Below are positions 13,978 to 41,459 of a DNA stretch of 52,393 nt, piece by piece. The stretch covers positions 1 to 52,393 of the forward strand of contig WQUY01000011.1 in assembly GCA_009781855.1 (NCBI GenBank). Direction: 5' to 3'. The stretch is from Oscillospiraceae bacterium. GTDB taxonomy: Bacteria; Bacillota; Clostridia; Oscillospirales; Oscillospiraceae. Both the position numbers and the translations under genes were made by a program. Each line of letters begins with the position of its first letter. Positions within the stretch are counted from its first letter, which is position 1. The notes under the pieces were generated by a model. It made no database searches. It was not told the origin of the DNA and saw only the letters and a program-made list of their open reading frames with translations.

Positions 13978-14032
13978 GACACAAAAACTTGCCAAACGGC
14001 GATTGTAAACATTTAATGTCAATTTGTATAAT
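13978..14032 (+). promoter_or_regulatory. Shared 34-bp element plus promoter of island A (copy A)
   Basis: The 34-bp element occupies 13978-14011, beginning GACACAAAAACTTGCC and ending with GATTGTAAACA. Its last part supplies the -35 TTGTAA (14003-14008); TATAAT (14027-14032) follows after 18 bp. The same block with identical internal spacing occurs at 35313, 41043 and 41405. Position directly upstream of -35 fits an activator site. Confidence 0.75.
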
Positions 14033-14043
14033 ATCGCATATTA

Positions 14044-14087
14044 AATTGTATAAAAGCTGCCCATTATGGACGCTTTTATTGCAATTT
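14044..14087 (+). other. Leader hairpin upstream of the alcohol dehydrogenase gene
   Basis: AATTG-TA-TAAAAGC pairs with GCTTTTA-TTG-CAATT around a 14-base loop. It would be at the very 5' end of the transcript from the promoter at 14003-14032. No U-tract follows, so this is not an obvious terminator; it may be a stabiliser or merely an AT-rich coincidence. Confidence 0.35.
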
Positions 14088-14133
14088 CCATGCGGTATTT
14101 TCATATATTTGCCATAATAAGGAGTGTATTGTG

Positions 14134-15276
14134 ATGTCAGAGATGCGTGTAAAATTAGCTTTAGCACCCACGATGGGCAGAGAGGTCGTTGTTGAAGAGG
14201 TCATTTTGGATCCACTCGGTGATCATGATGTAAGACTCAAGGTCGTAACCTGCACCATTTGCCATAGTGATATCCATGCAAACACAGGCGAGCATGGAGA
14301 ATATGAAGAACCCGGAGCTGCAGGCCACGAAATTTCCGGCATAGTTGTTGAGGTTGGCAAGAAAGTCACATATGTCAAGCCCGGCGATCGCGTGCTATGC
14401 AGCGAAGTACGTCAAGGTTGCGGCAACTGCGAACAATGCTACAATGACAGGCATTGGTTCTGCGAAAATATCCCTCCGATGTCATTTCGTGTTGCCAGTT
14501 GCTTTACCAGGCTCAATGGCGACCGAATAACCCAAACTTGCTCCGGAACTGCCGGATTCGCAACATACACAAATGTCCATGAAGCTATGCTATGCAAACT
14601 TGATGATGACATTTCCTTTGAAGTCGGTGCAGCACTCGCTTGCGGATTTATGTCGGGCTTTGGCGCAGTTCTGAACCGTTCAAAACCAAAACCGGGCGAA
14701 TCTTACGCAGTTATGGGTTGCGGCGGCGTGGGCTTATCCGCTATCATGGCTGCAAAACATGCAGGCTGTATTCCAATCATCGCCATTGATATCAACCCCG
14801 TTAAACTTGAAGCAGCAAAGAAGTTTGGTGCAACACATTGCATCAATCCAAAGGAAGTCAAAGATACAGTTGAGGCTGTAAAAGCCATTACAAAAGGTTT
14901 TGGCGTTGACCACAGCATGGTCGCTGTTGCAGGCCCAGTAAAGCGTACCACATGGGATCTCACAGCTCCATATGGTCAAATGGTCGTTGTAGGACACGAA
15001 CATCCACGCAATGAAGGCATGGAGGAATTTAATTTCTTCGACTTCCTGCTCGGCAAAAAGCTCACAGGTTGTGTCATGGGCGGTGTAACGCTCAGGCGCG
15101 ACATTCCAAAATACATGGAGATGTATCGCAATGGCCAAATCGACATCGACGCACTGCTGTCCAATTGGTTCACACTCGACAATATCCAAGAAGCCCTCAA
15201 CGATAGTGAGCGCGGCGCACTAAAAAACATCGTCGTTTGCGATGATGATTATGCCAAAGCAAAAGGCTTGATATAA
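14134..15276 (+). CDS. Zinc-dependent alcohol dehydrogenase (MDR family)
   Basis: 380-residue medium-chain dehydrogenase. Catalytic zinc ligands are in CTICHSDIH and GHEISG. The structural zinc lobe is CGNCEQCYNDRHWFC. The Rossmann motif is GCGGVGLSA, followed by AIDINPVK with an acidic residue that favours NAD(H). It oxidises an alcohol or reduces a carbonyl; the substrate is unknown. The start is ATG 14134, 9 bases after GGAG (GTG 14131 is the alternative). It is the first gene behind promoter copy A and is followed within 38 bp by the aconitase X subunits, so it probably handles the same compound before or after dehydration. Confidence 0.9.
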   Translation: MSEMRVKLALAPTMGREVVVEEVILDPLGDHDVRLKVVTCTICHSDIHANTGEHGEYEEPGAAGHEISGIVVEVGKKVTYVKPGDRVLCSEVRQGCGNCEQCYNDRHWFCENIPPMSFRVASCFTRLNGDRITQTCSGTAGFATYTNVHEAMLCKLDDDISFEVGAALACGFMSGFGAVLNRSKPKPGESYAVMGCGGVGLSAIMAAKHAGCIPIIAIDINPVKLEAAKKFGATHCINPKEVKDTVEAVKAITKGFGVDHSMVAVAGPVKRTTWDLTAPYGQMVVVGHEHPRNEGMEEFNFFDFLLGKKLTGCVMGGVTLRRDIPKYMEMYRNGQIDIDALLSNWFTLDNIQEALNDSERGALKNIVVCDDDYAKAKGLI

Positions 15277-15295
15277 TGGGAGCTCGACTCCCGCC
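15274..15295 (+). repeat. Stop-adjacent GGGAG-CTCGA-CTCCC hairpin, copy 4
   Basis: Begins at the TAA of the alcohol dehydrogenase gene: a 5-bp GGGAG/CTCCC stem with a CTCGA loop, followed by GCCA. It lies within the operon, so it is not a full terminator. Confidence 0.55.
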
Positions 15296-15314
15296 AACTA
15301 AAGGAGACACCACA

Positions 15315-16634
15315 ATGAGTTTATTTGCAGCCCCTAATCTCACAGATGAGGAAAAGCGCATACTTGACGGAGGCGAAGGCATAGTCAAGCAAAAATGTAT
15401 GGAGTATCTGGTGGAGCTGTGTCAGATTTCCGGAGCTGAGCGCCTTGTTGACCTCAACGGCACCGGAGACATGCACACACCCGGACTGAATCTGAGCCAA
15501 CATCATGTGATTACACTCGATGAACTTTCTGATTTTGCAGACAGAGGTGGGCGTTTCAAAATTCCCACATTTGCAGATAAATCGCCTTTTATGGATCAAC
15601 CCCCCATCCACGGTTGGGAGCATTGTAATCTATGTGCAGGTAAAAGACCGGACGCACGTCAGGACGACCCCATTTTTCACGAGAAAGCAATGCAGCGCGA
15701 AACATTTCAAATACTACAGAAGATGGGGCTAATCACCACCCACTCATGCGCCAATTATTTGGTTATGTCGTATCTGCCGAGCGTTGGTCAGCACTGCTCA
15801 TGGTTTGAAAGCAGTCAGCAAACATATTGTAATGCTACACTCGGTGCAAGAACAAACTTTGACGGAACTCTGGCCACATGCCTTTTGGGTAAAGCGCCCT
15901 ACTATGACATGCATATAACTGAAAATCGCCACGGTACGATTATGGTAACTACAGACAGGCTCATTACCAGCGATATTGAGTGGGATGTCTATGGTTTTGC
16001 AGTCGGTGAAGCTTGTGACGTTGAAGTGCCCATTGTCAACAACACAGTAATCCCCAACACAACACAATACCAAAAGTTCAACTCAGCTATCGCAACCGGC
16101 GGGGCTGTACGCATGTACCACCTACCTGGCATCACCCCGGAGGCTCCCACAGCCTCATTTGCCGCAGGTGGAAAACCCATAAAAGAATATATACATATTG
16201 ATGAGGCCGCACTCAGACGCACATATGATGTGCTCAACTATCGCAATAAAGATGACATTGATATGGTATATCTCGGATGTCCTCACTTGAACATCGTTGA
16301 CCTTATGACGCTTGCACTTAAACTCGAAGGCAAAAAGTGCAAGATTCCGCTCTGGATAGTCACTGCGCCTTGGCTCTATGCCCCCGCTAAGGAGCTTGGA
16401 TACTTAGAAAAATTTGAAAAAGCAGGTGCCCTGCTGCTCAGCGGCACGTGCCTTGCCGCTGTAGGCTCAGTGCCGGATGGCGTCCGCAACATCGCCGTGG
16501 ACACTGCAAAGCAGGCCTACTACATCACCGGTTGCTACCCTGACGAAAACGATCCCTTATATGTCAGTTATGGTTCCACGGACGAATGTATTGACGCCGC
16601 TCTTACAGGCAAGTGGCGCGGAGAATGGAGATAG
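15315..16634 (+). CDS. Aconitase X catalytic (large) subunit
   Basis: 439 residues of the AcnX/DUF521 family. Conserved features are HPxGLNL-like THxPG (MHTPGLNLSQHHVI), HGWEHCNLC (99-107) and three cysteines in family-typical places that can hold the Fe-S cluster: Cys322 (GCPHLN), Cys379 (SGTC) and Cys407 (TGCY). Characterised AcnX enzymes are cis-3-hydroxy-L-proline dehydratases in bacteria or mevalonate-5-phosphate dehydratases in archaea. The proline type is the likelier analogy, but the substrate is open. The start is ATG 15315 behind AAAGGAG. The small subunit starts 3 bp after the stop. Confidence 0.88.
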   Translation: MSLFAAPNLTDEEKRILDGGEGIVKQKCMEYLVELCQISGAERLVDLNGTGDMHTPGLNLSQHHVITLDELSDFADRGGRFKIPTFADKSPFMDQPPIHGWEHCNLCAGKRPDARQDDPIFHEKAMQRETFQILQKMGLITTHSCANYLVMSYLPSVGQHCSWFESSQQTYCNATLGARTNFDGTLATCLLGKAPYYDMHITENRHGTIMVTTDRLITSDIEWDVYGFAVGEACDVEVPIVNNTVIPNTTQYQKFNSAIATGGAVRMYHLPGITPEAPTASFAAGGKPIKEYIHIDEAALRRTYDVLNYRNKDDIDMVYLGCPHLNIVDLMTLALKLEGKKCKIPLWIVTAPWLYAPAKELGYLEKFEKAGALLLSGTCLAAVGSVPDGVRNIAVDTAKQAYYITGCYPDENDPLYVSYGSTDECIDAALTGKWRGEWR

Positions 16635-16637
16635 CCT

Positions 16638-17042
16638 ATGAGCAAGCGATTTTATGGGCGGTGCGAATATCCCGGCCAAGTAACTGCTGAGGCAATAGTT
16701 GCACCAAAGTACCTCCAAGGCTTCACAAATGTTGACCCTTTCAGTGGTTACACAACAGAGCGAAATCATCCTCTATGCAGAGTACCATATACCGGAAAGG
16801 TTTTGGTATTTTACTCACCTCGCGGTTCCGGAGGATTTTTGATGTATGGATTTGGAGCAAAACCAGCAGCATTTGTTCATACAAAATCCAGCCCACTTAC
16901 GGTCGGAGCAATTGTGCAAGCACGCATTCCATCGATTTCAGATTTTGAAGAAGACCCACTGCCATTCATCGAATCAGGCGATACCGTATTTGTAAATGCG
17001 GACGAAGGATATATCGAAGTCACAAAAAAAGGATCTGCTTAA
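16638..17042 (+). CDS. Aconitase X swivel (small) subunit, DUF126 type
   Basis: 134 residues, the swivelling beta domain that closes the AcnX active site. Recognisable features are the GKVLVFYSPRGSGGF loop (likely substrate-binding serines), GAKPAAFVHTKSSPL and a final VNADEGYIEVT strand. ATG 16638 lies 3 bp after the large-subunit stop with GGAG inside that gene. A close paralogue at 41525 shares most of the sequence but has no large subunit beside it. A strong hairpin follows. Confidence 0.88.
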   Translation: MSKRFYGRCEYPGQVTAEAIVAPKYLQGFTNVDPFSGYTTERNHPLCRVPYTGKVLVFYSPRGSGGFLMYGFGAKPAAFVHTKSSPLTVGAIVQARIPSISDFEEDPLPFIESGDTVFVNADEGYIEVTKKGSA

Positions 17043-17048
17043 ATTTTT

Positions 17049-17080
17049 GAAAGTCGGCATTTTAATCAATGCCGACTTTC
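17049..17080 (+). terminator. Hairpin behind the aconitase X genes
   Basis: 12-bp perfect stem GAAAGTCGGCAT / ATGCCGACTTTC with an 8-base loop, preceded by TTTTT. No long U-tract follows, so it may be a partial terminator or a processing site reducing expression of the ABC genes downstream. Confidence 0.7.
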
Positions 17081-17118
17081 AGAAAACATTGAAGCAAGCA
17101 TATAGGGGTGATTAACTG

Positions 17119-18639
17119 GTGGGGTATAGTTTAGAGTTTAAGTCAATGAGCAAATCTTTCCCTGGTGTCAAAGCACTTGACAATGTCTCATTTCGTGCAG
17201 ATGGCGGACGCGTGCTTGCTCTGATGGGAGAAAACGGTGCGGGAAAGTCAACGTTGCTGAAAATATTGGCAGGTGACTACTTCGCAGATGAGGGTGAATT
17301 TTTGCTCAATGGCATTTTGCAAAATTTCACATCTCCATACTCAGCAATCATGGCGGGAATCAGCGTCGTTTATCAAGAGCGACAAATGATACCTGCCTTG
17401 AGTGTAATGGAGAACATTTTTGCAGGTGCCTTGCCAAAAAACAAACTGGGTCTGATTGATAAGCCCAGATTAAAAAAAGAAACCATGGCGCTCATTAATA
17501 AATTTGAACTTTCAATCGACCCTTCGGTGCCTGTCGGGAGCCTCTCAGTTGCTCATCAGCAAATGGTTGAGATTATGAAAGCTTATAGACGCGGCTCTGC
17601 TGTTATCGCCTTTGACGAACCCACTGCGAGTCTCGCAGAGGAAGAAATCACAGTCTTATTCAAATTAATTGAAGCGCTCAAAAAAGAAGGCAAGATTGTC
17701 ATTTATGTATCTCATCGTATGCCGGAAATTTTTGAGTTGTCGGATGACATTGTCGTCTTGAAAGACGGTGCACTGGTTACCACTTTTATCACAAGTGAGA
17801 CAACTGTTGATGAGTTAATCACATCAATGGTTGGGCGCGACATTGGCGACACTTACGAAAATCTATCCCGCAATACAGAAGTTGGCGAAACGTTGCTAGA
17901 GATCAAAAATCTCGTCACCCATGACGTTCATAACATTGACTTTTCCCTAAAAAGGGGTGAAATCATTGGTTTTGCCGGGTTAATAGGCGCAGGAAGAACA
18001 GAGCTTGTGCGTGCAATATTCGGTGCCAATGAAATCACTTCCGGTGAAATAATTTTCGAGGGTCAAAAAATCGATTTCAAATCACCTTTTGATGCAATCA
18101 AGGCCGGATTCGCACTCTGTCCTGAGGATAGGAAAGAAGAAGGCCTGGTACTCTATCGATCTATAACGGACAATGTGAGCATCCCTGTACTATCAAAAAT
18201 ACGCAAAGCCCTCATCCTGGATAGGAAAGCTGAGGCAAAACTTGCAAGCACCGCAGTTGAAAAGTATGCTGTCAAGACACCCGGCATTGATAAGCTTGTT
18301 GTTGAACTGTCTGGTGGAAATCAGCAAAAAGTTATTCTCGGCCGGTGGACAAATGAGCTCATGAACACCAAGCTTCTCATATTGGACGAGCCCACAAAAG
18401 GTATCGATGTTGGTGCAAAAGCTGAGATTTACCAGACCATCTGCGACTTTGCAAAGCAAGGCATTGGCGTTATCTTCATTTCCAGCGAACTCACAGAAGT
18501 AATCGGGGTGGCCGATCGGATTTATGTAATGCGCAACGGGCGTATAACCGGCTGTGTAGACCGCAGTGATGCAACAGAAGAGGGTATCCTCTCACTTGCC
18601 ATGGCAGATAAGGACGAAACAGGAGGTGATGCCCAGTGA
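17119..18639 (+). CDS. Ribose/galactose-type ABC importer ATPase (two NBDs)
   Basis: 506 residues with two tandem nucleotide-binding domains, as in RbsA/MglA. NBD1 has Walker A GENGAGKST, the degenerate signature LSVAHQQM and Walker B VIAFDEPTA. NBD2 has the degenerate Walker A GLIGAGRTE, signature LSGGNQQK and Walker B LLILDEPTKG, followed by the family hallmark GIDVGAKAEIY. It starts with GTG 17119 behind AGGGGTG. The permease gene overlaps its stop by 4 bp. It powers import of the ligand bound by the lipoprotein at 20660. Confidence 0.95.
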   Translation: MGYSLEFKSMSKSFPGVKALDNVSFRADGGRVLALMGENGAGKSTLLKILAGDYFADEGEFLLNGILQNFTSPYSAIMAGISVVYQERQMIPALSVMENIFAGALPKNKLGLIDKPRLKKETMALINKFELSIDPSVPVGSLSVAHQQMVEIMKAYRRGSAVIAFDEPTASLAEEEITVLFKLIEALKKEGKIVIYVSHRMPEIFELSDDIVVLKDGALVTTFITSETTVDELITSMVGRDIGDTYENLSRNTEVGETLLEIKNLVTHDVHNIDFSLKRGEIIGFAGLIGAGRTELVRAIFGANEITSGEIIFEGQKIDFKSPFDAIKAGFALCPEDRKEEGLVLYRSITDNVSIPVLSKIRKALILDRKAEAKLASTAVEKYAVKTPGIDKLVVELSGGNQQKVILGRWTNELMNTKLLILDEPTKGIDVGAKAEIYQTICDFAKQGIGVIFISSELTEVIGVADRIYVMRNGRITGCVDRSDATEEGILSLAMADKDETGGDAQ

Positions 18640-19592
18640 ACATCAAAAAGATTGCACATTCAAAAATTTTTACGTTACTGATTCTGTTAGCCATAGTAAT
18701 CGCTACATTTACGATTTTGTCTAACGGCGCATTTCTACAACCGAGAAATATCAGAAATATATTTCAAGCAACAGTTGTTGTTTCCCTTTTGACAATAGGC
18801 GCGGGTATGCTCATGATTTCCGGCCAAATCGACTTATCTCTGGGCGGCATTGGTACTATGTGCGCCATGATGGCAGCATTTTTGATGCGTTCCGGTCTTC
18901 CTTGGCATCTATCTATGCTCGCAGCTTTGGTGCTTGGCGCGATTTGCGGTGCTTTTAATGCTGTGCTTGTAAACGAGTTTAATTTCCAGTCATTTATTGC
19001 CACACTGGCCACAGCATCAATAGCACAAGGCTTTATGGCGGTAATCAGTCAAGGCAGGCAGATTGACATTTCTGACCGCACATTCAACTTCATCGGCGGT
19101 GCAAGATTCTGGGATGACTTAATTCCTTTTTCACTAATCATTTCCCTAGTCCTGTTGGTACTTTACGGCATTATGCTCAAAAATACGAAATTTGGCAGAA
19201 GCATCTACCTTGTCGGTGGAAACGCAGATGCGTCTCGTCTGGCTGGGCTGCGCCCAAAACGCATCTCTTACCTGCTATTTATGAATGCCGGTGCACTGGC
19301 AGCACTCGCAGGTATGCTGCTCGCAGGCAGAATGATGACTTCAAATACTGTCGGAATAACTAACGCACAGTTCCAGGGGTTGACAGCGGCAATCCTAGGC
19401 GGCATAGCCTTTGGCGGCGGCAGCGGTGGCATGGGTGGCGCTATGATAGGCATTCTCATACTCAGCACATTCAACAATGGTATGACCATGATTAACGTGC
19501 CCATGCATTGGCAAAGTGTAGCTTCCGGTTTGGTGCTGCTTTCCGCACTAACCGCTGATTTTCTGAGTTCCAGAAAACGCACATCAGCTTGA
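18636..19592 (+). CDS. Ribose-type ABC importer permease 1
   Basis: 318-residue RbsC-like (BPD_transp_2) polytopic protein. The family signature ISGQIDLSLGGIGTM follows the second membrane segment, and GLTAAILGGIAFGGGSGGMGG is the loop near the end. It starts with GTG in a GTGA overlap with the ATPase gene. A second, different permease follows 15 bp later, so the transporter is probably a permease heterodimer, unlike RbsC homodimers. Confidence 0.92.
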   Translation: MNIKKIAHSKIFTLLILLAIVIATFTILSNGAFLQPRNIRNIFQATVVVSLLTIGAGMLMISGQIDLSLGGIGTMCAMMAAFLMRSGLPWHLSMLAALVLGAICGAFNAVLVNEFNFQSFIATLATASIAQGFMAVISQGRQIDISDRTFNFIGGARFWDDLIPFSLIISLVLLVLYGIMLKNTKFGRSIYLVGGNADASRLAGLRPKRISYLLFMNAGALAALAGMLLAGRMMTSNTVGITNAQFQGLTAAILGGIAFGGGSGGMGGAMIGILILSTFNNGMTMINVPMHWQSVASGLVLLSALTADFLSSRKRTSA

Positions 19593-19607
19593 TGTCAGGA
19601 GGTAAGT

Positions 19608-20600
19608 ATGAGTATCAAGTCACTTTCAAGAAAACTGCTTCTTGTCAGCAACAACATCGCTATCTTGCTTGTTGCAATTGTAGTTATTCTCGTATTCTAT
19701 AGCCAGAACCCAAACTTTCTGCACGATGATAACATCAGAAACATCATGCGTTCCATGGCATTTGTCGGCATACTCACCATCGGAATGGGTATGTTGCTCA
19801 TCGGCGGCGAGGTCGATCTTTCATCCGGCGCTGTAGCTGGTTTGAGTGGGGTGCTCGTTGCTATGCTCATTAACACAGGCATACCCTGGGGCTGGGCGAT
19901 AGTCATCACTATTGCCTTTGGTGCATCGCTGGGGCTCATCAGTGCGCTGCTTGTTAATGTATTGGGCTTCATGCACTTCATTGCTACACTTGGGCTGATG
20001 TCTGTGTACCAAGGTGTAATTCTTGTAATCACCAGAAATGTGTTCATTCCTGTTCCCAATGAGGGCTTTAGACTGATTGGGGGGACATCTTTTGGCAATA
20101 TCGTTCCGCTCCCATTCATTATCATGCTGGTATTAATGATTGCGTATACGCTTGTACTTTCAAACACAGGATTTGGGCGAAGTGTTTATATGTGCGGCGG
20201 CAATCGAAAATCTGCACGTTTGGTTGGAATCAAACCTAAAAAGATTTCCTACTTTCTTTACATCAACAACGGTGCACTCGGTGCACTTGCCGGTGTAATA
20301 ATTACCTCACAAATGGCCACAGCTTCTCCTGTCGCTGGCCAGACTGGTTCCATTGATGCAATTACCGCAGCTGTTTTAGGTGGTGTTGCTTTTAAAGGTG
20401 GAAGCGGCGGCATGTTCGGTTGCTTCATCGGCATATTGCTCATCAACTCTTTTAGCGCCGGGCTGACCTTTGTCGGATTCCCTCAATACTGGCAGATTGT
20501 CGCGCGTGGCAGCCTCCTTGTGCTCGCACTGTGCCTCGATTATGTGATTTCTGGTGCGCGTAGCCGTGCGCTGGAACATGCACTGAGGTCTCACAACTAA
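19608..20600 (+). CDS. Ribose-type ABC importer permease 2
   Basis: 330-residue RbsC-like polytopic protein with GGEVDLSSGAVAGLSG and ITAAVLGGVAFKGGSGGMFG as family signatures. It differs from permease 1 by clear divergence through the membrane segments. AGGAGG precedes the ATG by 5 bases. It is probably the second half of a heteromeric channel with the protein at 18636. Confidence 0.92.
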   Translation: MSIKSLSRKLLLVSNNIAILLVAIVVILVFYSQNPNFLHDDNIRNIMRSMAFVGILTIGMGMLLIGGEVDLSSGAVAGLSGVLVAMLINTGIPWGWAIVITIAFGASLGLISALLVNVLGFMHFIATLGLMSVYQGVILVITRNVFIPVPNEGFRLIGGTSFGNIVPLPFIIMLVLMIAYTLVLSNTGFGRSVYMCGGNRKSARLVGIKPKKISYFLYINNGALGALAGVIITSQMATASPVAGQTGSIDAITAAVLGGVAFKGGSGGMFGCFIGILLINSFSAGLTFVGFPQYWQIVARGSLLVLALCLDYVISGARSRALEHALRSHN

Positions 20601-20659
20601 TGGGTTATAGGTGTGCCGTTAAACACCTAAAAAATAATAAAGTGAAAGAGAGAACCACG

Positions 20660-21832
20660 ATGAAAAAAACCTTGGCTATTTTACTCACATTGGCAATGAT
20701 GCTCCTGCTTATTGCCGCATGTGCTGACAATGGCGGTACTGCACCTACACCTGGTGGAAACGACAGCAACAACGACAACGCTGCAACCGGTGAAGCTCCA
20801 CCTGTTGGCGACCCAATCATTGGAACAACTGATGAGGTTGTAGACCACCATGCCCGCCGCACATACCGAATCGCTTATACGCATTATGATAATAGCATCC
20901 TGCAAGAACAAATGTATGAAGCGTTTGTCTCCCTGCAAGAAAAATACAATTTTGAACTTGTGCGTATGACAGGTAATACAGATGATGAAATCTACATCAC
21001 AAATCTTGAAACCCTCATTGACCGTGGCGATATAGATGGCTTCATTATTGAGACCACAAACTCTGTCCAAAATGCTGTTTTGGCTATGATGGAAAGATCA
21101 GGCATCCCATCGATTAACCTGTTCACAGAGTATTTTGACGCTCAGGGCAGAGTGGTTACACCCACAGTTGGTCTGAGACAGCATGATGTCGGCTTTGCCG
21201 CAATGCAATACCTCATAGATAATCGCGAAACATGGTGGGGCGATGTGGATTCTGCCAATTTCGGTGTCATCGGCATAGACTTTTCAGTATCCCCTGCCCT
21301 TCATTATCGTACACAAGGCTTCCTGGATGCTTTTAGAGAAGCTTTCCCTGGTAATGAAAATGTATTTGAATGGGATAGCTTTGCTGCCGGTCAAGCTTTC
21401 TGGTTCGCACTTGAAGGCGGCTTCGATCCTACAATACAAATCGCATCTGCAAACCCACATGTCACGCATTGGTTCGTGGGCGGCACTGTAGAGAGTTATT
21501 CCATGGGTGCGGCACGCGCAGCCGAAGACCTCGGTCGAGATGATCAATTCCTCGTTACAACAGTTGGGCATCCTCTTATCGTTGATGAGTGGAATAATGG
21601 CTACGACGGAAGCAAGAGAGCCGTCGTGGCAATCAGTAACTATGCCTATGCCACACCAACCTTACTCGGGCTAATTGCTCTGATTGACGGTCGCGCAACA
21701 CCTGAAACACTATGGCCGCAATACCTCAACGATGGTGATTTAAGGGCTGTGTGGGAAGCGACTTCAGAAATCATCACAAGAGATAATTATCAAGATTTCC
21801 TAGACAGAATGGAAAGAATCTACGGCCCTTAA
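20660..21832 (+). CDS. Ribose-type ABC importer binding lipoprotein
   Basis: 390 residues. A lipoprotein signal peptide ends in LLIAAC with lipidated Cys21, then a Gly/Asn/Thr-rich linker (to about 65), then a periplasmic-binding-protein type I fold (RTYRIAYTHYDNSILQEQMYE region, and DIDGFIIETTNSVQNAV). The ATG at 20660 is preferred over upstream in-frame codons because it begins a proper signal peptide and follows GAAAGAGAG. The ligand is unknown; many Trp and Phe residues near ligand-contact regions (FEWDSF, WFVGG) would suit a ring or hydrophobic polyol ligand. It shares order and fold, but only low similarity, with the lipoprotein at 45622. Confidence 0.9.
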   Translation: MKKTLAILLTLAMMLLLIAACADNGGTAPTPGGNDSNNDNAATGEAPPVGDPIIGTTDEVVDHHARRTYRIAYTHYDNSILQEQMYEAFVSLQEKYNFELVRMTGNTDDEIYITNLETLIDRGDIDGFIIETTNSVQNAVLAMMERSGIPSINLFTEYFDAQGRVVTPTVGLRQHDVGFAAMQYLIDNRETWWGDVDSANFGVIGIDFSVSPALHYRTQGFLDAFREAFPGNENVFEWDSFAAGQAFWFALEGGFDPTIQIASANPHVTHWFVGGTVESYSMGAARAAEDLGRDDQFLVTTVGHPLIVDEWNNGYDGSKRAVVAISNYAYATPTLLGLIALIDGRATPETLWPQYLNDGDLRAVWEATSEIITRDNYQDFLDRMERIYGP

Positions 21833-21836
21833 TAAT

Positions 21837-21861: not shown

Positions 21862-21944
21862 TTTAAGGCTTGTACACTTTAACACTTTCAGGTAATGAGC
21901 GCTGCAAACATTCCTGATAACAAAATATTTTAGGGAGGATATCA

Positions 21945-24455: not shown

Positions 24456-24469
24456 GAAAGGAGTATCCA

Positions 24470-26739: not shown

Positions 26740-26744
26740 TGTTC

Positions 26745-29467: not shown

Positions 29468-29527
29468 GAGTTCCCCTCCTTACATCATGTGTATGTGCAT
29501 TCGCGTAAAAATGTTGCAGTTTCACGC

Positions 29528-29559
29528 ACGGCAGCAAGAGACATAGCCCTTGCCGCCGT
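29528..29559 (-). terminator. Intercistronic hairpin between binding protein 4 and permease 3
   Basis: ACGGCAGCAAG pairs with CTTGCCGCCGT (one mismatch) around a 10-base loop. It lies between a binding-protein gene and its permease gene, where partial termination or 3' end protection commonly raises binding-protein levels. Confidence 0.55.
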
Positions 29560-29622
29560 ACAATCTAATCATTAATACAATTTATTAGGCCGTGCCATAT
29601 ATGTACAGAACGCATATCATCA

Positions 29623-31302: not shown

Positions 31303-31386
31303 TTTGTCCTCCACTTTTTTATATATTTTTGTCCTGTTTTCTGTAAATGTATCAATGGCCTGTTTCGTGTCGTTTACTTTTTGAGC

Positions 31387-33435: not shown

Positions 33436-33486
33436 GTGTCTTCTCCTCAACCGTTCTTAACAACGCACATCCATATATAATACTTC

Positions 33487-33524
33487 ACACAACAGCGGAG
33501 GGTATAGACCCAACGCTGCTGTGT
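33487..33524 (-). terminator. Intercistronic hairpin between binding protein 3 and permease 2
   Basis: ACACAACAGCG pairs with CGCTGCTGTGT (one mismatch) around a 16-base loop. It occupies the same place as the hairpins at 29528 and 39266. Confidence 0.55.
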
Positions 33525-33551
33525 TTTGTAAATAATGTATAAAGCGAGTCC

Positions 33552-35228
33552 TTAGCTGGGACGGAGGTTTTCTGCTGTTTCAGAGAGATCCCAGAAAATC
33601 CCCCTCATATCCCACTCAAAAGTGAGCGGACTAAAGCGTATGCCACCAATTCCGTTGACCGCCGGAATGCCTCTGATTGGGAAGTAAACAGCCAGTGCAG
33701 GCATCTCTTCGTAGAAAATTTCTTGGATTTCTCGCGCGATTGCCGCACGATCTGCATCCGCAGCTGTAACTGCCAGTTCTTCTATAAGTTGAGTGACACG
33801 GTCATTGCTGTAGTTTAGCCAGTTCAGATGGTTTTCAGGCCAGAATCCTTGGCGAAGCGCTGTCATAGCAATCGGTTGTGCCGCAACAGCAAAGAAGTGC
33901 ATTTGCCGAGTGGATGTTGGATCAAATGTATGGGCTGCTGTAAACCCTGCCATATCTGTGATTTCAATTGCAATATTAATACCAATTTCAGCAAGCTGAA
34001 GTTGAATCATCTCAGCGCCTCTTATATTTTCAGCATTTGCAGTGATGAGTTCAATGGTTTCGCCGTTATAAACAGAGTCTGCTAGATATTGTCTGGCAAG
34101 TTCAGGATTATGCTCACGTTGCTCAAGACCGGATATGCGCCATTGTGTTTCCAGTCCCCAAATATTTCCATCTATAGCCGGCAATGCCCACCGACCTTCT
34201 GCGACAGTTGCAATATCCGCAGTATTTATAGCGTGTGCAACTGCAAGCCTGAAGTTTCTATCCATCATGATAGCATCACCTTGGTTGTTGAAACCAATTG
34301 AAGTGGGCATATTGTTTGTCACTGCAAACACTTGGAAATCCTCACTCTCGTTGAACATGTCCAAATCTTCTGCTGTCAATGAAAATACTGCTTGAGCCTC
34401 ACCTGTTTGAAGCATCAGTGTTCGTGTGGCCATTTCAGGAATCGTCCAAAGTGTCAAGCTTTTTGTTGGTGCCACGCCACCCCAATGATCCTCAAAACGC
34501 TCCAACCTTAAAAAGTCGTTGGTTGAAAAACCTGTCACTCTGAAAGGCCCGGTCGCGACATGCGCCCAACTCGGATCGCTGGGATTTGCTTCGAATGCTG
34601 TCCGGTTATATATACTTGCATGTGAGTTAGACAGTTCAAAGTAGAAGTCAACATTTACATCATGCAACACCATCTCAACGATGTAAGTGTCAACTGCTGT
34701 AATTGTTTCAATGAAACGCCACCTATTATATGCAGGTGATCCGGGATGCATTTTCGCTACTTCAACAGTAAAGATAACATCGTCAGCCGTAAAGTGATCT
34801 CCATTGTGGAAGTAGACATCATCGCGAAGATAGAATCTGAAAGTGACATAGTCGTCAGTTTCCCATCTTGTTGCAAGTCCAGGCCCCAGAGTTGTTGGCC
34901 CCGTATGTTCAATAAGTCTATCTTTTACTAATCTATTTGCCCAAGTAACAGGGTTTCCTGTTGCGCCCGGTAGCGTTGAGTTTAAAACTGTAATTTGGGT
35001 ATCCAGGATAAGGTCTATATGTTCCGCAAGATTTGCGCCTTCTTCCGGTGTCGCAGCAATTTCGTCACCTGCTCCCGGAGTCACCCCGGGCGTAGGTGTC
35101 GGTGTAGCCGTTTCACCGCCGGTCGGTGGTGTCGTGCCGGTATCCGTTGTCGGACCGCAAGCCGCCAGCAACGTAACAGCCATTAACAATGACAGTATGG
35201 TGGCTATAGCTTTTCTGTTTCTTTTCAT
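33552..35228 (-). CDS. Oligopeptide-type ABC binding lipoprotein 3 (SBP family 5)
   Basis: 558 residues. Signal peptide with LLAAC, Cys24, then a Thr/Pro-rich linker and an SBP_bac_5 domain (RFYLRDDVYFHNGDHFTADD, FRLAVAHAINTADIATVAEG). The ATG at 35228 has GGAG 6 bases upstream. It is the first gene behind promoter copy B, so it heads the second transporter unit: binding protein 3, permease 2, binding protein 4, permease 3. The mature domain is closest to binding protein 4. Confidence 0.92.
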   Translation of the reverse strand: MKRNRKAIATILSLLMAVTLLAACGPTTDTGTTPPTGGETATPTPTPGVTPGAGDEIAATPEEGANLAEHIDLILDTQITVLNSTLPGATGNPVTWANRLVKDRLIEHTGPTTLGPGLATRWETDDYVTFRFYLRDDVYFHNGDHFTADDVIFTVEVAKMHPGSPAYNRWRFIETITAVDTYIVEMVLHDVNVDFYFELSNSHASIYNRTAFEANPSDPSWAHVATGPFRVTGFSTNDFLRLERFEDHWGGVAPTKSLTLWTIPEMATRTLMLQTGEAQAVFSLTAEDLDMFNESEDFQVFAVTNNMPTSIGFNNQGDAIMMDRNFRLAVAHAINTADIATVAEGRWALPAIDGNIWGLETQWRISGLEQREHNPELARQYLADSVYNGETIELITANAENIRGAEMIQLQLAEIGINIAIEITDMAGFTAAHTFDPTSTRQMHFFAVAAQPIAMTALRQGFWPENHLNWLNYSNDRVTQLIEELAVTAADADRAAIAREIQEIFYEEMPALAVYFPIRGIPAVNGIGGIRFSPLTFEWDMRGIFWDLSETAENLRPS

Positions 35229-35292
35229 GTCGTTCTCCAACTCTTTTTATATATTTTTGCCACTTTTCTAACAACACATCCAGTATTCATTA

Positions 35293-35346
35293 ATTATAGA
35301 AATACCAACAATTTATCACAATCGGTATCCGGCAAGTTTTTGTGTC
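35293..35346 (-). promoter_or_regulatory. Shared 34-bp element plus promoter of the second transporter unit (copy B)
   Basis: On the minus strand the element (35346 to 35313) begins GACACAAAAACTTGCC and ends in CGATTGTGATAA. -35 TTGTGA (35321-35316) and TATAAT (35298-35293) are 17 bp apart. The start codon of binding protein 3 is at 35228. Confidence 0.75.
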
Positions 35347-35384
35347 CACTCGTGAGATAACTGCCGCAAGGATTTAGGGTGGAT

Positions 35385-37055
35385 TTATGGGCGCAAATGC
35401 TCAGGTGTTTGATTCAAATCCCAAAAGATTCCTCTCAGGCAATAGTCAAATGGATTTGCGCCCAATCTCATGCCACCAATTCCATTGACTGTTGGAATAC
35501 CCGCTACACGCCACCATAATGGTATCGCAGGCATTTCCTCATAGAAAATCGCTTGTATTTCATAAGCAATAGCAGTACGTGCCGCAACATCCGGAGTAGC
35601 TGCCAATTCATTGATTAGTGCAGTTACATATTCATTATTATAATTGAGCCGATTGGTCGCCATGCCCGGATAAAACCCTGTGCGCAAAGCATTTAGAGCA
35701 ACCGGTGCTGCCGGAACTGCAAACACATGCATTTGTCTGTCAGAATCAGGATTGTACATATGAATGTCAACAAACCCTGCGACATCAGTTATTTCAACAC
35801 TTACGTTGATGCCAATATTTGCCAGTTGCAATTGAATGAGCTCGGATGCTCTGATATTGTACGCTACTGTAGTGATTAGTGTAATAGTCTCTCCATTATA
35901 AACTGACGCCTCAAGGTATTGACGAGCCAACTCAAGGTCATGTTCACGCCTCGGTAAATCTTGCAATCTAAATTGCGTTTCATATCCCCAGAAACTTCCG
36001 TCTGAAACCGGAATACCCCAATTTCCCATCGCCACAGTTGCAATGTCCTCTACATTGATTGCATGAGCAACCGCTTTCCTAAAGTTTATATCTCTCATAA
36101 TGTCATCGCCTTGATAGTTAAACCCAATAATGATTGGCGCATTTGAGAGCACCGGAAGCACTGTGAAGTAATCGTTTGCAACAAGCATATCTAAATCTTC
36201 AGGTGTCATATTGAAGCTCAGTTGTGCAGAGCCTGTTTGCAGCATTACTGTGCGCGCTGCCATTTCCGGAATTGTCCAAAGTGTCAAGCTTCTTGTCGGC
36301 GCAGGCCCTCCCCAATAATCTTCAAAACGTTCAAGCGCTACAAAGTCGTTCGTGGCAAAATCTACAATTTTGAAAGGCCCAGTTCCAACATGCGCCCAGC
36401 TCGGATCATCGGGGCTTTCGGAATGCGCTCTTTGATTGAGAATCCCTGCGTGCGCATGCGCCATTTCAAATAGGAAGTCTACGTATACTTCAGTTAAAAC
36501 TACTTCGAGAACGTAGTCCTCAACTGCCGCAATGGTGTCAACCCACCGCCATCTGGCATAAGCTGGGGATCCAGGAGCTGTCATAGCAATATTGGCAGTC
36601 CACACAACGTCTTCTGCTGTAAAATGATCGCCATTATGGAAGTAGACATCATCGCGCAGATAAAAACGCCACGTTTTGTAGTCTTCTGTTTCCCATCTTA
36701 CGGCAAGTTGTGGGCCAAAGTCAGTGCCAAACTGTTCAAGCAATTTATCGTAAGCCAAGATATAAGTCCACGACGTTGGCCCTCCTGTTCCCGCAGGAAC
36801 AAGTGGATTAACAACGGTGATTTGAGTTGCATCAATTATGATATCTATATGATCAGCGAGATTTGCACCCTCGTCCGGAGTCGCTGCCTCAACATGCTCA
36901 GGACTTGGGGCAGAAGGCGTTGTCGGTGCGGTCTGTGTTGAGCCCCCATTTTGTGCAGCATCGCCGGTTGCATTGGGTTGCGAACATCCGACAACGAGTG
37001 CAAAACATATTGCAAGTGCAATACTCATGGCAATTAGTCTCATGCTTTTTTTCAT
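35385..37055 (-). CDS. Oligopeptide-type ABC binding lipoprotein 2 (SBP family 5)
   Basis: 556 residues. Its signal peptide (MKKSMRLIAM, ending VVGC with Cys24) differs from those of the other three binding proteins, yet the mature domain is very close to binding protein 1 (IIIDATQITVVNPLVPAG, VWTANIAMTAPGSPAYARWR). The ATG at 37055 follows GGAGG. It lies 43 bp behind fused permease 1 and is probably its second binding protein, giving the permease a choice of two ligands or affinities. No clear terminator separates it from promoter copy B. Confidence 0.92.
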   Translation of the reverse strand: MKKSMRLIAMSIALAICFALVVGCSQPNATGDAAQNGGSTQTAPTTPSAPSPEHVEAATPDEGANLADHIDIIIDATQITVVNPLVPAGTGGPTSWTYILAYDKLLEQFGTDFGPQLAVRWETEDYKTWRFYLRDDVYFHNGDHFTAEDVVWTANIAMTAPGSPAYARWRWVDTIAAVEDYVLEVVLTEVYVDFLFEMAHAHAGILNQRAHSESPDDPSWAHVGTGPFKIVDFATNDFVALERFEDYWGGPAPTRSLTLWTIPEMAARTVMLQTGSAQLSFNMTPEDLDMLVANDYFTVLPVLSNAPIIIGFNYQGDDIMRDINFRKAVAHAINVEDIATVAMGNWGIPVSDGSFWGYETQFRLQDLPRREHDLELARQYLEASVYNGETITLITTVAYNIRASELIQLQLANIGINVSVEITDVAGFVDIHMYNPDSDRQMHVFAVPAAPVALNALRTGFYPGMATNRLNYNNEYVTALINELAATPDVAARTAIAYEIQAIFYEEMPAIPLWWRVAGIPTVNGIGGMRLGANPFDYCLRGIFWDLNQTPEHLRP

Positions 37056-37098
37056 AACTTCCTCCAATACATTCGTTTAATTTATATATTTATAGGTC

Positions 37099-39210
37099 TT
37101 ATTTTTTTAATTTCGGGTCAAGCGCATCACGCAATCCATCTCCAAGCAAGTTAAATGCCATGAGCGCCAACATGATGAACAACCCCGGGAACGTTGTCAG
37201 CCACCATGCATTTCTTATGTTGTCTCTTCCTGCCGCAACAAGTTGTCCCCATTCTGGATTAGGAATTGGAATGCCAAATCCGAGGAAAGATAACGATGCC
37301 GATATAAGGATGGATAAGCCCAGCACATTTGAAAAAGCTACAATAAGTGGCGCCAGTCCATTGGGCAGAACTTGTGTGAATATGATGCGCGAACTTGGAA
37401 GCCCAACTGCTCGCGCGGCTTCAACAAACTCATTGCCTTTGATTGATAGTATTGATGCTCGTGATAGTCGAATGAAAATAGGAACAGCAGCAACGCCTAC
37501 AGCAATAATCAAGTTGGTCAGCGACCTTCCCAAAGTTGTTATGATGACCATTCCCAATAAGATGCCAGGAATAGATGCCAGTGTATCTGAGAACCTCATG
37601 ATTACATCATCTGCAATATTGCCTTCGTAATAAGCTGCAAGAGAACCTAGAAAAACCCCAACAACTGCAGCAACCGCGGTGGCACCAAACCCAATAGGCA
37701 AAGAAAACCTAGTTGCGTAGATAACCCTTAAAAATTGATTGCGCCCCATTCCATCAGTACCAAACAAGAATTGCCATGATGGCGGTGAAAATCTGTCTGG
37801 TATGCTCGCTGCCGTCATTGATTCAAATGACATAAATAATGAAGCAATAAAGCACACAATCAGGCCTGCAACTATGACCAAGCCAGCAACCGCACCTTTG
37901 TTTTTAAACAAATGGTGCACGATTTCACCTATTTGACTGCGCTTCTTATATTTTTTTGATACAGACTCACCGGAATTATCGTTAGTTTTAGACATGCTCT
38001 TTGAATCAATATCTTGTCGCGCTTTTGTTGCAAAACTAACGAAGCTGCCCTCATGCATATTCGCTTCACTTGCCTCTGCACGGCTCATAGACGCTTGCGC
38101 ATCAATATCTTTAGAAAGAGCATCTTGCTGCTCAGCATCATCAGTTGAAACAATGGATGTTGTCGTTTCATCTCTTTGTGTCAATGTTGCAGCAGCAACC
38201 ACATGTGCAGCAACTTCTTGCGCTACAGGAGCATATGTAGTGGGTTCTTTTCTTTTTGCGCGCTTTTTCGATTTGCCTGCACTAATGTATTGCTGCTTTA
38301 TTCGTGGGTCAATAAGCGCATAAGCTAAATCTACCAATAGTTGCACCATTACATACAATACCGTGGTCAGAATTACAGCTCCTGTGGTCGCTGTTACGTC
38401 TCTCGACGCTACCGACTCAACAACAAACCTGCCTATACCAGGCCAAGCAAACACTGTCTCAACAACTGCAGATCCAGAAATTGAAACACCTAAGCTTAGT
38501 CCTATATTGGTGACAATGGGGATGAGCGCATTCCCCAAAGCATGTTTTCTTATGATTTGATTCTCTGGCACACCTTTTGCACGGGCTGTACGCAAATAAT
38601 CTGAACTCAAAACTTCTAACATACTTGACCTCGTCTGTCTCGTAGACGAGGCAAGCATTGTCATTGAAACGCAAACGGCAGGCAAAATGATACTGCGCCA
38701 GCCATCTCTAAACCCTCCGGCAGGAAACCATGTCAGTTGGTAAGAGAAGAATAGAATCAACAAAATACCAAGCCAAAATGCCGGCATCGACATGCCCAAC
38801 ATAGTAAATGCAGTTGTTAGGTTGTCGGTTATTTTCCCTGCGCGTCTGGCCGCAAGCATACCCATCGGGATCGAGATAACCACAGCAAAAACCAACGCAA
38901 CCAGAGCAAGTATCAATGTATTTGGTAGCCTGGCAATGAATGTCTCCCAAACGCTAATGCCGCTGAGATCTGATACTCCCAAATCTCCTTGAAGCAGCCT
39001 GAGCATGTATCTGCCGTACCGCACAATCAATGGATCATCAAGCCCCAAATCTGCTCTCAATGCAGCGACAGCTTCATCAGACATGTCGCTAAGATCCCAC
39101 CCCGCCAAAGCATCACCCGGCGCGAGATCCATAAGTGTAAACACAATGAAAGAAACGGCAACTATTACGGGAATAAGTAGTAAAATTCTCTTCAAAAAGT
39201 AACGAAGCAT
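37099..39210 (-). CDS. Fused DppB-DppC oligopeptide/nickel-type ABC permease 1
   Basis: 703 residues with the same two-permease layout as its paralogues: DppB-like half to about 310, a linker of about 115 residues that is Ala/Thr/Ser/Asp-rich, then the DppC-like half ending DALDPKLKK. Near the linker end all three proteins keep a short motif of the form AT(R/K)-x-x-x-D-I/L-E/D-S, while the rest of the linker is unalignable. It starts with ATG behind AGGAG. The flanking binding-protein genes on both sides share its strand. Confidence 0.93.
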   Translation of the reverse strand: MLRYFLKRILLLIPVIVAVSFIVFTLMDLAPGDALAGWDLSDMSDEAVAALRADLGLDDPLIVRYGRYMLRLLQGDLGVSDLSGISVWETFIARLPNTLILALVALVFAVVISIPMGMLAARRAGKITDNLTTAFTMLGMSMPAFWLGILLILFFSYQLTWFPAGGFRDGWRSIILPAVCVSMTMLASSTRQTRSSMLEVLSSDYLRTARAKGVPENQIIRKHALGNALIPIVTNIGLSLGVSISGSAVVETVFAWPGIGRFVVESVASRDVTATTGAVILTTVLYVMVQLLVDLAYALIDPRIKQQYISAGKSKKRAKRKEPTTYAPVAQEVAAHVVAAATLTQRDETTTSIVSTDDAEQQDALSKDIDAQASMSRAEASEANMHEGSFVSFATKARQDIDSKSMSKTNDNSGESVSKKYKKRSQIGEIVHHLFKNKGAVAGLVIVAGLIVCFIASLFMSFESMTAASIPDRFSPPSWQFLFGTDGMGRNQFLRVIYATRFSLPIGFGATAVAAVVGVFLGSLAAYYEGNIADDVIMRFSDTLASIPGILLGMVIITTLGRSLTNLIIAVGVAAVPIFIRLSRASILSIKGNEFVEAARAVGLPSSRIIFTQVLPNGLAPLIVAFSNVLGLSILISASLSFLGFGIPIPNPEWGQLVAAGRDNIRNAWWLTTFPGLFIMLALMAFNLLGDGLRDALDPKLKK

Positions 39211-39265
39211 AGACTCATCTCCTCAGATTACTTGACCTTCCAGTGCTTTGAATATTTTTATGCTA

Positions 39266-39299
39266 TTTACTCCCAACAGCCAAAGCCGCTGGGAGTAAA
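39266..39299 (-). terminator. Intercistronic hairpin between binding protein 1 and permease 1
   Basis: 10-bp perfect stem TTTACTCCCA / TGGGAGTAAA with a 14-base loop containing GC-rich pairing. Third example of a hairpin at this junction type. Confidence 0.65.
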
Positions 39300-39312
39300 G
39301 CCCCATAGGTTC

Positions 39313-40968
39313 TTATGGACGCAGATGCTCTGGTGTTTCATTCAAATCCCAGAAGATTCCTCTCAAGCAGAAATCAAACGGATTTGCACCAAGCCTCATG
39401 CCGCCGATGCCGTTAACGGTTGGTATCCCGGTTACTCTCCACCAAAGTGGTATTGCAGGCATTTCATCGTAAAAGATTTCTTGAATTTCATGCGCTATGG
39501 CTACCCGTCTATCATACTCTGCCGTAGCAGCTAACTCATCAATAAGCGCTGTGACTTGGTCATTGTTGTAGTTCAGTCTGTTCGTGAACATCCCCGGGTA
39601 AAATGCGGTGCGCAGAGCATTGAGCGCAACCGGTGCTGCACCTACTGCGAATATGTGCATTTGTCGGTCAGAATCTGGATCAAACGCATGTGCTTCTGTA
39701 AACCCAGCATGATCTGTAACTTCTACATTAATATTTATACCTACTTCAGCAAGTTGTAGCTGAACCAGCTCTGATGCTCTAATATTGTAAGCAACAGCGG
39801 TAATGAGTTCGAGGGTTTCGCCATTATACACAGATGCTTCAAGATATTGTCTGGCTAGTGCAGGATCATGTGCGCGTCTGGGTAAGCCCTGAAGTCTGAA
39901 CTGGGTTTCAAACCCCCAAAAGCTGCCATCAGTCACAGGCAGACCCCAATTACCCATAGCTACTGTAGCTATGTCTTCAACATTTATAGCGTGCGCCACG
40001 GCACGTCTAAAATTCGGATCCATTACTATTTCATCGCCTTGATTGTTAAAGCCTATAATTACCGGAGCATTTGATATTACGGAAAGCACTGTAAAGTCGT
40101 CGTTTGCATAAAGCATATCCAAATCTTCTGGTGTCATCAGAAAACTGACCTGTGCAGCGCCGGTTTGCATCATCACTGTGCGCGTTGCCATTTCAGGAAT
40201 TGTCCAAAGTGTGAGGCTTCTCGTTTGAGCAAGAGCACCCCAATAGTTATCATTACGTTCAAGCGTTACAAAATCGTTTGTGGCAAAATCAACGATACGA
40301 AACGGCCCGGTTCCCACATGAGCCCAACTTGGATCGTCAGAATTTTCTGAGTGTGACCTTTGATTGAGAATCCCTGCGTGTGCATGTGCCATTTCGAACA
40401 GGAAGTCAACATACACTTCAGTCAATACTATATCCAGGGTGTAATCATCATAGGCAGTTATGCTGTCAACCCAACGCCATCTGGCATATGCAGGAGACCC
40501 GGGGCTGGTCATCGCAATGTTTGCCGTCCATACAACATCTTCGGCTGTAAAATGATCGCCATTGTGGAAGTACACATCATCGCGCAAATGGAATCTCCAG
40601 TTCTGGTAATCTTCTGTTTCCCAATACATTGCCAATTGCGGCCCAAATTCAGTGCCTATTTGCTCCAGAAGCTTATCGTAGACTAAAATATAAGTCCACG
40701 AAGTCGGCCCGCCGGAACCGGCAGGTACTAACGGATTAACAACGGTGATTTGAGTCGCGTCTATAATAATGTCAATGTGATCCGCAAGATTTGCACCTTC
40801 CTGGGGCGCTTGCGCTTCTACATGCTCGGGCACAGGTGTCGGTGCAGCCGTTTCACCGCCAGTCTGTGGCGCTCCGCCGGTGTCTGCTGTCGGACCGCAA
40901 GCCGCCAGCAACATAGCCGCCATTACTAATGCCAGTATCATGGCTATAGATTTTCTGTTCCTTTTCAT
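39313..40968 (-). CDS. Oligopeptide-type ABC binding lipoprotein 1 (SBP family 5)
   Basis: 551 residues. The signal peptide with LLAAC (Cys24) is nearly the same as in binding proteins 3 and 4, but the mature part from about residue 55 matches binding protein 2 (DATQITVVNPLVPAG, FATNDFVTLER). The gene therefore looks like a recombinant of two paralogue types. ATG 40968 follows GGAGGG. It is the first gene behind promoter copy C and heads the first transporter unit. Confidence 0.92.
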   Translation of the reverse strand: MKRNRKSIAMILALVMAAMLLAACGPTADTGGAPQTGGETAAPTPVPEHVEAQAPQEGANLADHIDIIIDATQITVVNPLVPAGSGGPTSWTYILVYDKLLEQIGTEFGPQLAMYWETEDYQNWRFHLRDDVYFHNGDHFTAEDVVWTANIAMTSPGSPAYARWRWVDSITAYDDYTLDIVLTEVYVDFLFEMAHAHAGILNQRSHSENSDDPSWAHVGTGPFRIVDFATNDFVTLERNDNYWGALAQTRSLTLWTIPEMATRTVMMQTGAAQVSFLMTPEDLDMLYANDDFTVLSVISNAPVIIGFNNQGDEIVMDPNFRRAVAHAINVEDIATVAMGNWGLPVTDGSFWGFETQFRLQGLPRRAHDPALARQYLEASVYNGETLELITAVAYNIRASELVQLQLAEVGININVEVTDHAGFTEAHAFDPDSDRQMHIFAVGAAPVALNALRTAFYPGMFTNRLNYNNDQVTALIDELAATAEYDRRVAIAHEIQEIFYDEMPAIPLWWRVTGIPTVNGIGGMRLGANPFDFCLRGIFWDLNETPEHLRP

Positions 40969-41023
40969 GTTGCCCTCCATATTATATAGTATATGTTGCC
41001 CGTATAAACACAGGCATAAAATT

Positions 41024-41076
41024 ATTATAAAATATTAGTAACCGATTACAATCTGTTTCCGACAAGTTTTTGTGTC
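41024..41076 (-). promoter_or_regulatory. Shared 34-bp element plus promoter of the first transporter unit (copy C)
   Basis: On the minus strand the element (41076 to 41043) begins GACACAAAAACTTGTC and includes GATTGTAATCG. -35 TTGTAA (41051-41046) and TATAAT (41029-41024) are 16 bp apart. GACA and TGTC bracket 8 bases in this copy, a weak dyad. Confidence 0.75.
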
Positions 41077-41404
41077 CGCACAGCATTGCAGATTACGCGA
41101 ATTTAACGCCACTCATTTTCTTTTTAACCATCACTTTAAGCTGCAAATTTTTTGCGCGGTTGAAATTTTCTTCCGGAAACACCACTCAAAAATTTAACAT
41201 CGGTCAGTTAGGTATGATTTTTTTACAAACCAAAATCGAAATGCAGTGAATATTACATGTATTTGCGAACATTTTTATAAACATCAAAAGCTATATTATT
41301 TTGTCGCGCTAACAGAGTAACATCGCCTTTTACACTGAGTGTTTGAGTCCGGTTTTCATTAACGCGAACTATTCAAAAAAACTTACCCAAACACTCCAAA
41401 TGCG
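41077..41404. other. Divergent intergenic region between promoter copies C and D
   Basis: 328 bp of AT-rich sequence without a credible open reading frame, tRNA or long repeat. The two outward-facing shared elements bracket it, so it is the control region between the peptide-transporter units and island B. Confidence 0.6.
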
Positions 41405-41459
41405 GACACAAAAACTTTCCAAACAGCGATTGTAAATAAGCAGCAATTGAGTTAACAAT
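41405..41459 (+). promoter_or_regulatory. Shared 34-bp element plus promoter of island B (copy D)
   Basis: The element (41405-41438) matches copy A at all but a few positions (GACACAAAAACTTTCC, then GCGATTGTAAATA). -35 TTGTAA is at 41430-41435. The -10 is weak: AACAAT (41454-41459) at 18 bp is the best candidate, so this promoter may depend most on an activator. Confidence 0.7.

Follow-up and report, generated by a model that had tools for sequence, protein, structure and literature searches.

A 39-bp operator-like promoter box shared by the promoters of an aconitase X gene island in an Oscillospiraceae bacterium, with a LysR-type protein as its most probable reader

The stretch of DNA analysed here, called the window below, comprises 52,393 nucleotides (contig WQUY01000011.1 of assembly GCA_009781855.1) of an uncultured Oscillospiraceae bacterium, whose genome assembly (G000) has 134 contigs, totals 2.40 Mb and is 92% complete. 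It carries a gene for a LysR-type regulator, LysR1 (13074..13949, +; HTH_1 and LysR_substrate domains, both above Pfam cut-offs), and four copies of a 39-bp promoter box, each preceding genes that were typed from Pfam matches. Box 1 (13970..14008, +; -35 TTGTAA at 14003-14008, -10 TATAAT at 14027-14032) stands before an operon whose first gene encodes a Zn-dependent alcohol dehydrogenase (ADH; 14131..15276, +), followed by two genes for the large part and the swivel domain of aconitase X (AcnX; 15276..17042, +) and by an Rbs-type ATP-binding cassette (ABC) transporter (17119..21832, +) with an ATPase, two permeases and a binding protein, the last scoring 34.3 against a Pfam cut-off of 35.1 bits; URO-D and Grd genes perhaps also lie behind this box. 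Box 2 (35316..35354, -; -35 TTGTGA at 35316-35321, -10 TATAAT at 35293-35298) precedes a unit with two SBP_bac_5 substrate-binding proteins (SBPs) and two fused OppB-OppC permeases (27353..35240, -), and box 3 (41046..41084, -; -35 TTGTAA at 41046-41051, -10 TATAAT at 41024-41029) a similar unit in the order SBP_bac_5, fused permease, SBP_bac_5 (35385..40980, -). Box 4 (41397..41435, +; -35 TTGTAA at 41430-41435, weak -10 AACAAT) precedes island B (41504..50722, +), which encodes an AcnX swivel, an Rbs-type transporter, a Na/sulfate-type symporter and two URO-D proteins.

Written as the search pattern GACACAAAAACTTNNCN7GATTGT, with positions counted from the G of GACAC, the box has four exact matches in the window, at 13978-14006(+), 35318-35346(-), 41048-41076(-) and 41405-41433(+). 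These are the four copies that an earlier note on this DNA had described, and none of 100 shuffled windows reached four matches, the mean being 0.01 per window even with up to 3 mismatches allowed. Intergenic sequence makes up 8.8% of the window, and positions that are both intergenic and no more than 150 bp 5' of a start on the same strand only 2.1% of positions/strands; the chance that all four copies fall at such promoter spots is ~2e-7, for a gene list hand-picked from the open reading frame (ORF) list and Pfam matches. The genome-wide motif search that the earlier note proposed yielded five strong copies, all promoter-positioned and in one metabolic island. The fifth lies outside the window (G000:C12:44464-44492(-), 1 mismatch) before a second Zn-alcohol dehydrogenase gene (ADH2), and the remaining match of the full pattern in G000 has 3 mismatches and lies inside an ORF on contig C22. 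A scan of G000 with a sequence-only model built from ten strong sites, which scored 150 of its 2402 first-look candidates, returned five matches with E-values of 3e-11 to 8e-8, favoured by the presence of these five sites in the training set, a match at C12:41133 with E 0.005, and nothing else below 0.03; the pattern counts are independent of the model.

The ten strong sites, five from G000, three from G004 and two from G017, define a conserved element of 39 bp, from -8 to +30, that reads CAAANNNGGACACAAAAACTTKCCAAANNNCGATTGNNA. Its conserved columns are C(-8) in nine sites and G(-1) in eight, then GAYACAAAAACTTKCC, AAA and CGATTG. The 3' edge, TTGNNN, doubles as a -35 hexamer with 4 or 5 of 6 matches to the consensus TTGACA, and when spacings of 15-19 were tried, a TATAAT-like hexamer (4-6 of 6 matches) was found 16-18 bp past it at every one of the ten sites, each of which has the -35 and -10 spacing of a sigma-70 type promoter. 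The summed -10 score is 56, against a mean of 36 and a maximum of 45 when the downstream 60 bp were shuffled (0/2000 shuffles as good). Boxes 1 to 4 read TTGTAA-18-TATAAT, TTGTGA-17-TATAAT, TTGTAA-16-TATAAT and TTGTAA-18-AACAAT, in agreement with the earlier description of TATAAT 16-18 bp downstream with a weak -10 at the last site. That description also had a 34-mer ending in the -35: the hexamer is indeed embedded at the 3' edge, but 3 bp of the 34-mer follow it, and the conservation noticed upstream of the -35 stands, but begins 8 bp earlier, for a total of 39 bp. A structured RNA or riboswitch element was rejected, as no Rfam family matched in the window at gathering score.

Seven of the ten strong sites have a perfect TATAAT as their -10, so that the promoters could work unaided, and the box itself includes the -35. 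Both features suit a repressor, a protein that would sit over the -35 and keep polymerase out until released by an inducer; this would concern the mode only and is compatible with any of the regulators considered below. The imperfect -35 hexamers argue against it, as does the fact that LysR-type transcriptional regulators (LTTRs) are mostly activators, and we regard repression as rather improbable.

Comparison of related promoters shows that the box is preserved while its surroundings drift. In five related strong-promoter pairs the boxes are 0.74-0.85 identical, and the 60-bp upstream and downstream flanks 0.23-0.50 identical without gaps and 0.43-0.61 with gaps. In ungapped comparison, box identity is 0.85 for the ADH promoters of G000 and G004 (flanks 0.28 upstream, 0.50 downstream), 0.82 for island B of G000 and the AcnX operon of G004 (0.32, 0.30), 0.74 for the Rbs-type SBP genes of G004 and G017, which are putative orthologues (0.37, 0.33), 0.77 for the paralogous SBPs within G000 (0.23, 0.38) and 0.79 for ADH and ADH2 (0.32, 0.48); a pair of weak sites before genes for an aldehyde:ferredoxin oxidoreductase (AOR) gives 0.62 (0.35, 0.37). 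In gapped comparison the box did better than every one of 200 shuffles, and this for all six pairs.

These values bear on the idea that the copies are remnants of duplicated promoters or of a repeat, with no shared function. Some target genes are indeed paralogous (ADH and ADH2 71% identical, the first SBPs of the two units 60%, the swivels 81%), and two flanks are slightly similar, namely those downstream of the ADH orthologues (reached by 2/200 shuffles) and upstream of ADH and ADH2 (7/200). The remaining flanks, however, score close to shuffled sequence (equalled by between 7 and 181 of 200 shuffles), the box is common to first genes that are unrelated (ADH, SBP, swivel), and its orientation and -10 spacing are kept in all ten sites. 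The idea is largely contradicted by these observations, and we consider it highly improbable.

In a panel of 60 related genomes, G000 included, the box with at most 1 mismatch occurs in exactly G000, G004 and G017, and the same three have LysR1 at E <= 1e-80. Close LysR1 orthologues were found in two of the 59 other genomes (G004, 63%; G017, 48%), the rest having remote LysR matches only; of the 19 same-genus genomes, 3 have both box and LysR1, and the other 16, some of them incomplete (64-98%), lack both. All three genomes have a strong box at the LysR1 3' end: in G000 the ORF stops at 13949 and the first pattern copy follows after 28 bp, exactly as the earlier note had it, whereas the box follows by ~200 bp in G004 and overlaps the last codons in G017. 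The G004 and G017 boxes precede related genes, those for ADH, the AcnX operon and the Rbs-type transporter. LysR1 falls into no named equivalog such as CidR or GltC; CidR was highest, at 132.4 bits against a cut-off of 415, among the best 25 of 41 families.

Wider draws were searched as well. Among 300 genomes of the family, a draw that did not take in G017, the box with at most 1 mismatch was found only in G000 and G004; five others had one 2-mismatch match each (four inside ORFs), against two in 300 for the backward control, and LysR1 was present at E <= 1e-40 in 5/300. In even draws from the order and class, with at most 6 candidates scored per genome and G004 and G017 evidently not drawn, LysR1 at E <= 1e-45 was found in 1/394 and 1/391 genomes, each time G000 itself. 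AcnX was used as a control: ten genomes with AcnX and without LysR1 at E <= 1e-30, picked from the closest among at least 78 AcnX loci and with completeness not given, had no box better than E 0.09, and one of them, G1037, encodes ADH and AcnX that are 88% and 84% identical to those of the window. All 78 loci were scanned with a 33-column box matrix, which gave two matches of at least 31, both in L118 (record WQVH01, Emb289P1bin128), a locus contained in G004 contig C20; L149 reached 12.5, within the reversed-control range (maximum 14.0). The L129 genome (WQVW01, Emb289P1bin49) has the same matches at the same places as G017, and from their isolate names we take the WQVH01 and WQVW01 genomes to come from termite gut. 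Poorer matches were set aside: G004:C12:6240 (2 mismatches) overlaps an opposite-strand ORF start and lacks C(-8), the 2-mismatch matches in G016 and G047 are inside ORFs and, like the five of the family draw, look like background, and 3-mismatch matches, seen in 28/60 genomes, were treated as background and not used.

The box is most probably a real operator-promoter element of a small regulon present in few lineages, read most probably by a LysR-type protein, and the genes behind its copies are very probably switched together. The single regulon proposed in the earlier note is supported at the level of sequence by promoter placement, the small number of copies, the copies in G004 and G017 and the diverged flanks around them. 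More specifically, we think it somewhat probable that the box is the operator of a five-promoter regulon and that a LysR-type protein, most likely LysR1, reads it with an effector and as an activator. LysR1 would bind the 39-bp box and, with an effector (probably either a pathway intermediate or the substrate itself), bring RNA polymerase to the sigma-70 type promoter for which the 3' edge of the box supplies the -35. Joint switching would then extend to five promoters on C11 and C12: those of the ADH-AcnX-transporter operon, the two SBP/OppBC units, island B and ADH2. The C11 and C12 genes probably form one island, because many of their homologues lie together on one 34-kb G004 contig.

Several observations weigh against this reading, or against LysR1 as its protein. 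No clear palindrome was found in the box, the best dyad having 0.49 of its pairs complementary. A generic promoter scan called boxes 1-3 and missed box 4, and its counts did not stand above its own shuffles (3 vs 1.3, 6 vs 2.6, 1 vs 0.5). No copy was found upstream of the LysR1 gene or of that for a second LysR-type protein, LysR2 (G000:C12:40169-41053), so that this box gives no sign of the usual autoregulation, and in G017 no box lies within 415 bp of AcnX. LysR2 co-occurs with the box as exactly as LysR1 does, and in G000 and G004 a weak box in reversed orientation follows it at the 3' end. Finally, G257, G148 and G100 have LysR1 (44, 39 and 36% identical) yet no convincing box. The best candidate in the 19-kb locus of G257 (L069:10027-10065(-)) lies just 3' of LysR1 and is followed by TTGCAA-17-TACATT; scoring -0.2 against a reversed-control maximum of 13.9, it is suggestive only and was not accepted. 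A G100 candidate (L071:4076-4114, score 1.2) was dropped for overlapping the start of the next ORF, and the best matches in G148 lie elsewhere in the locus than at LysR1. The segment that we take to be the LysR1 recognition helix reads SLSTLSKYI or NLSTLSKYI in G000, G004 and G017, and NTSTLSKSI, HPSTLSKYI and QASTVSKYI in the G257, G148 and G100 set; the LysR2 helix segment is also alike among the box genomes.

Four weak sites, drawn from matches with 4-6 mismatches and picked by their intergenic place, help to separate the binding site from the promoter. In G000 a reversed weak box lies before AOR and directly 3' of LysR2 (L007:5130-5160, matrix score 34.7); it is picked up by a shorter pattern at C12:41132-41159(-), with 3 mismatches, and has a model E of 0.005. 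In G004 a reversed box before AOR (L058:9316-9346) scores 9.6, inside the reversed-control range (maximum 13.9) and below stray matches on real sequence that score 11.0 and 11.1, whereas a forward weak box before a symporter gene (L058:13017-13047) scores 28.7. The last, G004 C20:19195-19225 (L058, -; E 2.7e-5, score 37.8), is flanked by an MFS gene and a xanthine dehydrogenase-type gene, pointing away from the latter and towards the end of the former; a glycyl-radical enzyme behind this site was considered and rejected, the gene ahead being of the xanthine dehydrogenase type. C(-8) and G(-1), which are outside the search pattern, occur together in all four weak sites and in 0/9 other weak matches from the G000, G004 and G017 stretches. 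The three reversed sites have poor promoters on their own strand (-35 matches of 3, 2 and 2 of 6; best -10 3 of 6), which suggests that the TTG edge belongs to the promoter and not to the binding site.

The position of the LysR1 gene and its co-occurrence with the box favour the LysR protein of the earlier note as reader, but do not prove it, since LysR2 co-occurs equally. LysR2, alone or together with LysR1, could read the same operator and control the same regulon. It is found in the same genomes as LysR1, namely 3/60 relatives (E <= 1e-30) and 6/16 chosen genomes (E <= 1e-20), although the G100 match (28%) may be a generic LysR; besides the reversed boxes directly 3' of LysR2, the strong box of G017 lies between LysR1 and a LysR2 paralogue. 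Against this, the LysR2 boxes are weak (E 0.005 in G000, within the control range in G004) and those at LysR1 are strong in all three genomes, and we consider LysR2 an unlikely reader. Another type of regulator, for example the OmpR-type response regulator encoded at 8880-9533 beside a kinase gene, is less likely still. Response regulators often bind direct repeats, and the box contains one, CAAANNNNGA, with a 23-bp period, but its statistics are weak (column-permutation P 0.013 for the mean score and 0.34 for the sum). The kinase and regulator have no close homologue (best 39%) in the fetched G004 and G017 stretches, whole genomes not having been searched.

The arrangement of the two LysR genes also invites a more speculative idea. 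In G017, G257 and G148, LysR1 and a LysR2-type gene lie side by side and converge; the box between them is strong in G017, where its promoter reads TTGCAA-16-TATAAT, doubtful in G257 and not seen in G148. In G017 the ends of contigs C34 and C122 (L062, L129) overlap by 123 bp, which places AcnX 1109 bp past the box on the same strand; the order is then LysR1, box, antisense LysR2 paralogue, AcnX, with the box promoter aimed through the antisense gene to AcnX. Conceivably the two LysRs form one travelling module with the ancestral box between their convergent 3' ends, its promoter reading antisense through the second LysR into the pathway operon, so that switching the pathway on would silence the second regulator. 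The pair would have been split in G000 and G004, where each LysR keeps a 3' box in the predicted orientation (strong at LysR1, weak at LysR2). We consider this quite doubtful.

With LysR1 as the favoured reader, the box can be set beside known LysR-type operators. It resembles the lys box (T-N11-A) in a fixed T(12)-N11-A(24), present in 9 of the ten strong sites and in 12/14 when weak sites are included, and in touching the -35; a LysR gene stands beside one copy, and the targets are metabolic and transport genes. LTTR operators typically have a second site, the regulatory and activation binding sites (RBS and ABS) together spanning ~50-60 bp; the conserved span here is 39 bp, with the weakly supported 23-bp repeat inside it. 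Unlike the usual lys box, the present one lacks a clear palindrome, the regulator gene is upstream and co-directional instead of divergent, and several dispersed promoters share one long 39-bp box, no copy of which was found before the LysR gene. The PltR box of Pseudomonas is a single lys box containing T-N11-A that lies just upstream of the promoter and is needed for activation; it forms an interrupted palindrome of 22 bp, located between pltR and pltL at -74 to -53 (PMC3382589). Both systems have a single T-N11-A box at the promoter; the present one reaches into the -35.

For type I and II AcnX, the gene has been placed inside a metabolic gene cluster (PMC8184944), and this holds for AcnX here, which differs in being split into a large part and a swivel and in lying beside ADH, URO-D and Grd genes. 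Scored as the named dehydratase, the window's AcnX reaches 154.6 where the cut-off is 700. The island B swivel (41504-41926, +) stands without a large AcnX part, and the matching G004 operon (L059) has both. In the openly licensed literature searched we found nothing on the box or on AcnX with LysR; the one paper that linked an AcnX gene cluster with transcriptional regulation concerned hydroxyproline. The permeases at 27353-29467, 31387-33450 and 37099-39210 (-) are ~700 aa long, with OppB-like and OppC-like halves fused, and no ATPase gene is among the typed ORFs beside them and the SBP_bac_5 proteins. A GrdB-type gene (24425-25516, +, continuing to ~25756) has an in-frame TGA at 345/431 of the family model, after which the frame continues GTSTRC...; judging by this reading frame, it probably encodes a selenoprotein longer than the listed ORF. 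Further upstream, 298-3815 (+) encodes a molybdopterin enzyme with a pyrogallol hydroxytransferase large subunit-type domain, plus an Fe-S subunit.

The finding would place under common control, in uncultured Oscillospiraceae, the genes for AcnX and both ADHs, those of the Grd and URO-D types, ABC transporters of two kinds and perhaps an aldehyde oxidoreductase. Such a shared unit narrows the search for the pathway that these genes serve and provides a sharp, testable regulator-operator pair; if anything here goes beyond the ordinary, it may be that two LysR genes track the box so exactly.

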